The notes beneath the pieces are model-generated. The model was given only the letters and a program-made list of their open reading frames with translations. It did no database searches and was not told where the DNA came from. The position numbers were made by a program, and so were the translations under genes. Shown one piece after another: positions 33,032 through 40,173 of a stretch of DNA of 64,000 bases. The stretch is from Bacteroidales bacterium (GTDB lineage: Bacteria; Bacteroidota; Bacteroidia; Bacteroidales; UBA932): contig JAEESO010000002.1 in the NCBI GenBank assembly GCA_016286385.1, positions 124,001-188,000 of the forward strand, in the 5' to 3' direction. How positions within the stretch are numbered: position 1 is the first letter of the stretch; each line of letters starts with the position of its first letter.

Positions 33032-34429
33032 ATGAAAAACAAGTACATTGACCTTATAGATCAAACCTTCGACTTCCCCCAGGACGAATTCATGGTGGTG
33101 GACGGCAATCTGATGTTCAATGACATTGACCTTATGGAAATCATTGAGAAGTACGGTACTCCCCTCAAGATTACCTATCTTCCCAAGATCTCTTCCCAGA
33201 TCCAGAGGGCAAAGCGCCTTTTCAAGGTGGCCATGGCCAAAGCGGATTATCAGGGAAAGTACCATTACAGCTACTGCACCAAGAGTTCCCAGTTTGCCTT
33301 TGTGGTGCATGAGGCGCTTAAGAATGACATCCACCTGGAAACATCATCGGCCTATGACCTGGACCTCATGCAGGCCCTGGAAAAAGATGGTTCCGTGGAC
33401 AAGAGCAAGATCTATGTCATCTGCAACGGCTTCAAGCGCCCGCAGTACGTGGAGAATATAGCAAAACTCCGCAAGGACGGCTGGGTGAACATCATCCCCG
33501 TCCTTGACAACAAGAATGAGTTTGAAGACCTGGCCGATCTTATTGAGGAGGAGACCATGATGGGTATCCGCATTGCCTCCGAGGAAGAGCCCAACTTCGA
33601 TTTCTACACTTCCCGCCTTGGTATCCGTTATTCGGATATAGTGAAGTTCTACAAGGACACGGTGGCAAAGTATCCCAACTTCCACCTCAAGATGCTGCAT
33701 TTTTTCATCAACACGGGTATCCGTGACACGGCATACTACTGGAATGAGCTTTCAAAGTGCGTGAAGGTTTACTGTGAGCTCAAGGCCATCTGCCCGGAGC
33801 TGGACAGCCTTAACATAGGCGGCGGCCTTCCCAACAAGACTTCCCTGGCCCAGGACTTCGACTATGAATACATGGTGGAGGAAATCATCAACCAGATCAA
33901 GGTCACGTGTAATTCATACGGGGTTCCGGAGCCCGATATCTTCACGGAGTTCGGCAGCTTTACCGTTGGAGAGAGCGGCGCAACCATCTTCAAGATCCTG
34001 GACATCAAGCAGCAGAACGACCGCGAGAAGTGGTACATGATAGACAACTCCTTCATGACCTGCCTCCCGGATACATGGGGTCTTAACCAGCGTTTCATTC
34101 TCCTCCCCGTGAACAAGTGGAACGATGAATACCAGAGGGTGTTCCTGGGCGGCCTCACCTGCGACAGCCAGGACTTCTATAATGCCGATTACCACGCCAA
34201 CGCAATCTTCCTGCCCACCATCCGCAGCCGCAGGGAAAACCTCTACATCGGCTTTTTCCACACTGGAGCATACCAGGAGGCCATTTCCGGCTACGGCGGC
34301 ATCAAGCACTGCCTCATGCCTTCCCCGAGGCACATTCTCATAGACCGCGACAAAGAAGGCAACCTGGTCACTTCCGTCTTTGCTGAAGAACAGACCGCCG
34401 AATCAATGTTAAAAACTCTAGGTTATTGA
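33032..34429 (+). CDS. speA: Arginine decarboxylase (short Bacteroidota form, PLP fold III)
   Basis: YHYSYCTKSSQFAFVVHEAL, LHFFINTGIRDTAYYWNEL, TEFGSFTVGESGA. Confidence 0.85.
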   Translation: MKNKYIDLIDQTFDFPQDEFMVVDGNLMFNDIDLMEIIEKYGTPLKITYLPKISSQIQRAKRLFKVAMAKADYQGKYHYSYCTKSSQFAFVVHEALKNDIHLETSSAYDLDLMQALEKDGSVDKSKIYVICNGFKRPQYVENIAKLRKDGWVNIIPVLDNKNEFEDLADLIEEETMMGIRIASEEEPNFDFYTSRLGIRYSDIVKFYKDTVAKYPNFHLKMLHFFINTGIRDTAYYWNELSKCVKVYCELKAICPELDSLNIGGGLPNKTSLAQDFDYEYMVEEIINQIKVTCNSYGVPEPDIFTEFGSFTVGESGATIFKILDIKQQNDREKWYMIDNSFMTCLPDTWGLNQRFILLPVNKWNDEYQRVFLGGLTCDSQDFYNADYHANAIFLPTIRSRRENLYIGFFHTGAYQEAISGYGGIKHCLMPSPRHILIDRDKEGNLVTSVFAEEQTAESMLKTLGY

Positions 34430-34565
34430 TGATGAAGGGTATATATCTCTAAACCCGTGGCCACCCTCGGCCGCGTAAGAGGGAGGGGCCCAAAGTCCGC
34501 GCGTAGCGCGGGCGCCTGGGAGGGGTCGCGAAGCGACGGTTTAGAGATATATACCCTTCATCATC
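34428..34565. repeat. Structured inverted-repeat element, copy 1 (28-bp perfect arms, 82-nt core)
   Basis: Arms 34428-34455 and 34538-34565 are perfect reverse complements; core about 88% identical to copy 2. Confidence 0.9.
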
Positions 34566-34577
34566 TGAAGAATAGCA

Positions 34578-35276
34578 ATGATTACAGCAGCAGAAATAAA
34601 GTTCATCAAGTCACTGTCACAGAAGAAGTTCCGGGACAGTGAGGGACTTTTTGTGGTGGAAGGTGAGAAGATGGTCCAGGAGGCATTGAAATCCGGTTTT
34701 GAGGTTGAGAAAGTGTATAGGAAGGAGGAGTTAGGTGAAGCTGCAATGGAGCGGATATCGGCCCTTTCGTCCCCTTCCCCGGTGCTGGCACTGGTGAAAA
34801 AGCCTGATGTGGCGTTCAAGGCTCCTTCGGAGGGTCTATACCTGGCGCTGGACGGCATCAGGGACCCCGGTAATCTTGGAACAATCCTGAGGATTGCCGA
34901 CTGGTTTGGAATTGATGCCGTATATGCCTCTGAAGATACCGTAGAGCTGTATAATCCCAAGGTTGTGCAGTCCACTATGGGCGCAATTTTCCGTATACCG
35001 TTCTACACTACCAATATTCCTTCGCTGTGTTCTTCTTATCCCGGCAAAGTGTACGGTACCTTCCTTGACGGGGAGAATATGTACAGGAAGGAACTGTCGG
35101 CCACCGGAATCATTGTTATCGGCAACGAGGCAAATGGCATATCAAAGGAAACGGCCGCCTGTGTAAGCGACCGTCTCTATATTCCTCCCTATCCGGCCGA
35201 TGACCCCGGCTCCGAATCCCTAAACGCCGCCGTCGCCACTGCCATCACCGTTGCGGAGTTCCGCAGGAGGGGTTAA
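34578..35276 (+). CDS. TrmH/SpoU-family RNA methyltransferase
   Basis: DGIRDPGNLGTILRIADWFG, IVIGNEANGIS, PGSESLNAAVA. Confidence 0.93.
   Translation: MITAAEIKFIKSLSQKKFRDSEGLFVVEGEKMVQEALKSGFEVEKVYRKEELGEAAMERISALSSPSPVLALVKKPDVAFKAPSEGLYLALDGIRDPGNLGTILRIADWFGIDAVYASEDTVELYNPKVVQSTMGAIFRIPFYTTNIPSLCSSYPGKVYGTFLDGENMYRKELSATGIIVIGNEANGISKETAACVSDRLYIPPYPADDPGSESLNAAVATAITVAEFRRRG

Positions 35277-37977: not shown

Positions 37978-40173
<2,196 letters not shown>

Follow-up and report, generated by a model that had tools for sequence, protein, structure and literature searches.

The window, a 64,000-nucleotide stretch of a Bacteroidales contig, carries two copies of a palindromic element, one between the genes for arginine decarboxylase and a TrmH-like rRNA methyltransferase and the other inside the gene for DNA ligase LigA (Table 1). 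An earlier note on this DNA had described copy 1 as a perfect inverted repeat around a short core, and our measurements bear this out: the arms of 28 nt are 100% complementary and the spacer is 82 nt long. Copy 2 (40007-40144) is also as described, with a core of the same length, 82 nt, between arms that are 96% complementary, and the two cores differ at 10 of 82 positions. Copy 1 indeed starts within the arginine decarboxylase stop codon and ends 12 bp 5' of the TrmH-like start (34578). The compensatory C-G to G-C swap that had been pointed out between the two copies is genuine and is part of the third hairpin, P3 (34489..34520). The outermost pair of stem S1 is also swapped, being G34457-C34474 in copy 1 and C-G in copy 2, which the earlier note did not mention. 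The RNA fold has a z-score of -10 on the + strand.

Table 1 The two copies of the palindromic element and the neighboring genes (positions within the window)
Feature	Position	Strand	Remarks
Arginine decarboxylase ORF	33032..34429	+	Stop codon overlaps copy 1 left arm
Copy 1 left arm	34428..34455	+	28 nt, locus-specific; perfect complement of 34538-34565
Copy 1 pseudoknot stem S1, 5' strand GTGGCC	34457..34462	+	S1 covariation, 201 distinct cores
Copy 1 pseudoknot stem S2, 5' strand CCCTC, within S1 loop	34464..34468	+	S2 covariation
Copy 1 S1 3' strand GGCCGC	34469..34474	+	S1 covariation
Copy 1 linker GTAA	34475..34478	+	RTRA in all copies; partly set by search pattern
Copy 1 S2 3' strand GAGGG	34479..34483	+	S2 covariation
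Copy 1 variable hairpin P3 (CCC...GGG), flanked by two G-rich motifs	34489..34520	+	Closed hairpin in 209/217 distinct copies
Copy 1 tail hairpin P4 GTCGC-GAA-GCGAC	34525..34537	+	Tail hairpin of at least 4 bp possible in 196/217
Copy 1 right arm	34538..34565	+	Complement of left arm
TrmH-like rRNA methyltransferase ORF	34578..35276	+	Start 12 bp after copy 1
DNA ligase LigA ORF	38020..40173	+	C-terminal end encoded in frame by copy 2
Copy 2 left arm	40007..40034	+	Encodes 10 residues in frame in LigA ORF
Copy 2 core (pseudoknot, P3, P4)	40035..40116	+	From sequence and genome search
Copy 2 right arm	40117..40144	+	96% complementary to left arm

Read from its 5' end, the element consists of the left arm, the S1 5' strand, one base, the S2 5' strand, the S1 3' strand, RTRA and the S2 3' strand, followed by AGGGG, P3 (CCC...GGG), AGGG(G), the tail hairpin P4 and the right arm. 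Clear compensatory changes argue that S1 and S2 form an H-type pseudoknot, which together with two hairpins makes up the fold of the core. The S2 pairing CCCTC/GAGGG, for example, is replaced in other copies by CCCGT/ACGGG, CCCTT/AAGGG or CCCCC/GGGGG. Across 201 distinct cores, pair 3 of S1 occurs as GC, TA, AT or CG (88% paired, 47% when shuffled) and pair 4 of S2 as TA, GC, AT or CG (87% paired, 45% when shuffled), statistics that ignore kinship among the copies. Both hairpins recur in most of the distinct copies (Table 1). The GGG motifs and RTRA were partly set by the search pattern, and thus their conservation is no independent evidence. In 11 pairs of sites shared between species, the core and tail are 93% identical and the flanks, coding for the most part, 85% (p = 1e-5, with pattern-fixed positions excluded and pairs that are not all independent). 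At these sites, changes in the 5' core are chiefly compensatory and fall in the outer S1 pairs. The higher identity of the core implies either that the fold is selected or that copies convert each other. The core of two copies (L222, L022) contains, nested between S1 and S2, a hairpin repeat that is shorter and C/G-rich (CCCC..AGGGCAAAT.TCCC..GGGGGA..AATAGGGGG).

Within the host genome, 25 matches to copy 1 correspond to about 22 distinct copies of the element, numbers that are based on pattern and BLAST searches. A pattern scan of GTDB species genomes retrieved at least 119 further stretches carrying the element pattern, and among the matches listed all are from Bacteroidales metagenome-assembled genomes (MAGs), for the most part from gut and rumen. 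When genomes were drawn evenly across the order Bacteroidales, the pattern was present in 4 of 393, from three families; in the host's own family it was present in 24 of 150, with 1 to 22 exact matches per genome. The reversed pattern, used as a control, had no match in either the 393 or the 150 genomes. Given this result and a core that recurs about 22 times in one genome, we conclude that the copies are not due to chance. Plasmid and phage collections contained no match to the element; the sole match to a viral contig (L145), which lacks the rest of the core and has no convincing arms, was rejected as chance. No Rfam 15 family reached the gathering threshold anywhere in the whole window, a further search gave chance-level matches only, and text searches of the open-access literature found no description of such a family. 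This is a large, apparently undescribed family of mobile palindromes of about 140 bases in gut and rumen Bacteroidales. In one genome (G064), several contigs start within near-identical copies (L256, L260, L263). Assemblies thus break at the element, and the copy numbers are probably too low. In another assembly (G000), contigs C57 and C51 hold two variants of the MurE locus (L013, L014), both with the element and with arms that differ in concert; these probably represent two strains within the MAG.

Many copies lie within genes. In the host genome, the insert has one open frame, continuous with that of the protein, in DapF, MurE, a CYTH-domain protein, YgiQ and YggS, and further in-frame copies occur in TruB, an MFS transporter and a THUMP-like protein, each gene having been compared with an element-free relative. 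All intragenic copies checked in conserved genes of this genome are in frame. Elsewhere, in-frame copies are found in DnaX, RNase R, RibF, RsmH, TruA, TilS and others (names inferred from Pfam domains). Overall, 88 of 138 copies are in open-through ORFs, some of which may be spurious antisense ORFs. The insert would add about 45 residues to the host protein, and many of the proteins so extended are housekeeping enzymes. Genic copies occur in either orientation and in several frames. Their open frames in variable regions suggest that they are translated and located in surface loops of the proteins.

Comparison of filled and empty orthologous sites bears on how the element arrives. At the start of the thiamine pyrophosphokinase gene (L004), the sequence of empty congeners is AAGATGAATAGCATC, in which a stop and a start codon overlap, and that of the host genome is GAAGATGAATAG-(arm-core-arm)-CTATGGATAGCATC. 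Both arms are therefore within the insert, and about 8 bp are apparently duplicated. Neither arm is present in host DNA at the empty sites of congeners at L006 and L010 or at the empty genus-g220 sites of L306 and L323, and alignments with empty homologues of DapF, TruB, YgiQ, RNase R and others have a gap opposite each arm. As judged from genomic sequence, these orthologous empty sites show that the core came in together with both arms, without duplication of the flank. Evidence for a target-site duplication is no more than suggestive: it is clear by eye at L004 (8-9 bp) and L313 (10 bp), and direct repeats across all copies are in slight excess (p = 3e-5), with a small effect.

The earlier note had offered an inverted duplication of the flank as one possible origin of the arms. 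In such a process each insertion would make its arms from the target, with some 25 nt of host DNA on one side of the core and their inverted copy on the other. Some observations fit. The 18 copies of one genome (G476) combine similar cores with unrelated, self-complementary arms of up to 34 nt (L322), the right arm of the YggS copies L245/L138 matches an element-free G019 gene at 18 of 21 nt, and at MurE there is a match between the left arm and IPEGVxxP of G034. At these two genes a duplicated host flank at first seemed persuasive, but congener YggS loops and the other empty sites led us to reject it as a general origin. In most other congeners read at this locus, the YggS loop is plain and short and lacks the motif of G019, and two congeners have remnants there: extra arm-like residues in G028 (VCEHIPSGL, resembling the right arm; L421) and a fragment reading like the core in G034 (GRGREAT; L422). 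Thus, the G019 sequence is most likely the scar of a lost element. The trmH-side sequence of G005 (L147) and a G600 footprint at the L306 site (L351) are also scar-like, and loss of the element seems to leave one-arm scars. In addition, some copies at different loci have common arms (G162, G473/G438). We therefore consider arms made from the target unlikely.

The arms, typically 26-30 nt long and different in sequence from copy to copy, are self-complementary in 129 of 138 copies, with complementarity scores of at least 12, compared with a maximum of 11.5 for swapped partners. With S1 and S2 pairs that covary and empty orthologous sites at hand, this speaks against the chance duplication of a terminator-like sequence that the earlier note had weighed. 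What consensus the arms have is weak: AAACC innermost, pyrimidines from -8 to -10 and, around -16 to -20, GGG(T)A. Identity is 0.6-0.7 at the inner end and declines outward to 0.25. Among the G476 copies, arm identity drops from 0.66 over the inner 10 nt to 0.24, the random level, past 25 nt, whereas a 35-nt core is 0.94 identical in the same copies. Near-constant cores with random outer arms are at odds with the idea that the arms are plain drifting terminal repeats.

At sites shared between species, there are 46 double, paired arm changes and 16 one-sided changes, from pairs that overlap in species and are not fully independent. In an eight-pair subset, 19 of the double changes are transitions and 18 are transversions. 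If mismatches were repaired step by step by way of G-U pairs, transitions should predominate; because transversions are equally common, copying from arm to arm is the simpler account. The orientation of the core, as read from assemblies, is opposite between species at the CYTH-domain gene (L003/L130) and DapF (L008/L237) and, from a reading of four species, at the YgiQ sites. Template switching between inverted repeats is known to homogenize arms and invert spacers (PMC8604942, PMC8794818), and we infer that the concerted arm changes and core inversions are its signature. The copying mechanism of the earlier note is supported, by the concerted changes, as a process between the two arms. As strong arm covariation can stem from a mutational process, it is not in itself proof of a functional RNA.

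Arm mismatches reveal which strand folds. Relative to the core, G-T mismatches outnumber A-C mismatches by 84 to 39 (p = 6e-5) and G-A mismatches outnumber C-T mismatches by 74 to 7 (p = 3e-15) in 161 non-redundant copies. Since A-C and C-T are the G-T and G-A of the other strand, the asymmetry indicates that the + strand of the element folds. P3 has a strand asymmetry too (89:26). Copies antisense to the host ORF are biased in the same direction (GT:AC 14:5, with p = 0.06 for G-T taken alone; GA:CT 15:2), and the bias therefore does not come from a fold of the host mRNA. A folded + strand in the form of either single-stranded DNA or an element-borne RNA could explain the bias. No replication-strand preference was detected by GC skew (38 versus 41 copies). 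Over all copies, the purine-purine G-A mismatches cluster between positions 4 and 6 of the arm, counted from its inner end, where the closing helix may have a conserved internal loop.

The other idea of the earlier note, selection on folding, is upheld by the covarying pseudoknot and hairpins, the strand-specific wobble bias and the conservation of the core beyond its flanks at shared sites. The same three features might be expected if the element were a structured RNA or regulatory element that benefits the host and owes its retention at each site to an effect on the neighboring gene. However, it is inserted in both orientations and inverted at the same site, the host genes are a random mixture, the corresponding site is empty in many congeners, and Rfam offers no match. 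We find such a host function quite improbable.

Strand-specific folding would also suit the single-stranded DNA substrate of a Y1 transposase (RAYT/IS200-type) that moves a REP-like element, and Y1 domain proteins are encoded in many of these genomes. In contrast, G162 has six copies and no Y1 match, and Y1 genes are present in genomes without copies. Only 1 of 20 Y1 loci has a copy of the element nearby, the 20 regions read gave no association, and the element is without the GTAG/CGTC tag. Movement by such an enzyme is accordingly very unlikely. A phase-variable inverton, in which a site-specific invertase recombines the arms and the core is the segment that flips, would account for the inverted arms and for the opposite core orientations at three sites. 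Yet the core has a conserved fold, not a promoter or coding switch, and the arms of one genome's copies share almost no sequence and hence no common recombinase site, which makes an inverton scarcely credible. Least plausible of all is a reverse-transcribed element that owes its mobility to a reverse transcriptase of the retron, group II or DGR type: the element resembles a compact folded RNA, but a search with the RVT_1 model, which a divergent enzyme could escape, found no reverse transcriptase in the copy-rich genomes G000, G005, G476 and G162. Between the two enzyme classes examined (Y1, RVT_1), no transposase or reverse transcriptase linked to the element was found.

We favor, with a probability of roughly 60%, the reading that both copies in the window belong to a non-autonomous, mobile, structured palindromic element that inserts whole, folds as its + strand and has arms kept alike by template switching. 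Empty and filled orthologous sites show that the arm-core-arm unit of about 140 bp inserts between genes or, in frame and in either orientation, into genes, where it probably lies in surface loops of the proteins. Its working form is probably the folded + strand, as single-stranded DNA or as its own RNA, with a 27-bp closing helix, the H-type pseudoknot and two hairpins set apart by GGGAGGG(G) motifs. Once the element is in place, template switching at replication would copy one arm onto the other, as the concerted double changes suggest. This copying would keep the stem near perfect while its sequence drifts, and would sometimes invert the core. The core may stay near constant because it is needed for mobilization, because the fold has some other activity or because copies convert each other. 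Several points count against this favored explanation: no mobilizing enzyme was found among the two classes examined, target-site duplication is only suggestive, the G-T bias of antisense copies taken alone has p = 0.06, and the arm change in G476 exceeds simple drift after copying, unless the core is converted or strongly selected. A further step, which we put forward as a tentative and rather doubtful extension, is that the element represents a new mobile class whose folded + strand is recognized by shape. Only the pseudoknot core and a few junction bases would be kept, and a stem of any sequence would be rebuilt at or after insertion by arm copying. Under shape recognition, such a stem would make the in-frame element tolerable in many proteins.

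The closest known kind are the Rickettsia palindromic elements (RPE), mobile palindromes of about 105-150 bp that occur in frame in genes for conserved proteins as well as between genes, and whose families have a conserved sequence and, according to a review, a conserved encoded peptide (PMC10969869, PMC2229807). The Bacteroidales element shares the in-frame insertion into conserved protein genes. Compared with RPE as described, its stem has another sequence at almost every locus, it is apparently translated in both orientations and in several frames, its core has a covarying pseudoknot and its hosts are Bacteroidales. As it lacks an RPE-type conserved sequence and encoded peptide, we do not assign it to the RPE. 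Bacterial MITEs (Correia/NEMIS, RUP, ERIC) are likewise short and non-autonomous, with inverted-repeat ends, a stable stem-loop and both intergenic and intragenic locations, but the Bacteroidales element is without conserved terminal inverted repeats, no parent IS was found for it and its target-site duplication is weak at best. The GTAG- and CGTC-tagged palindromes of the REP/RAYT system are similarly dispersed and fold on one strand, but are much shorter, tagged and associated with Y1 transposase genes, a link that the present element does not have.

Two known phenomena resemble the behavior of the arms. Coding palindromes in the mitochondria of Nematomorpha are long inverted repeats in coding sequence with concerted arms, for which template switching was proposed (PMC6649704). 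They share the coding location and concerted arms with the Bacteroidales element, but originate in native sequence and have no mobile core in common. Hairpins homogenized by template switching (PMC8604942, PMC8794818) have the same arm homogenization, multi-base compensatory changes and spacer inversion; they reflect a mutational process on existing repeats, whereas the Bacteroidales element is a mobile family. As judged from the open-access literature, this would be the first in-frame palindromic family of such a kind in Bacteroidales. It provides a natural series of paired sites at which template switching can be watched as it keeps a helix perfect amid sequence change. Should the folded strand prove to be what moves, it would point to a hitherto undescribed structure-recognizing mobilization system in abundant gut and rumen bacteria.

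The same permissive sites hold different palindromes in other species (L235, L252, L229). At the MFS transporter site of G005 (L235), a different palindromic insert (GGGCAAATTGGTTTTTCGAG ... CTCGAAAAATAATTTGCCC) is in frame where the host genome has the element. A second dispersed palindrome, of the CGTCATTCCCGGCTTGACCGGGAATC type and similar to CGTC-tagged REPs, is common among these genomes (L252, L229, L355, L359 and the flank of L012). It shares some insertion sites with the element and is in frame within MurE of G003.
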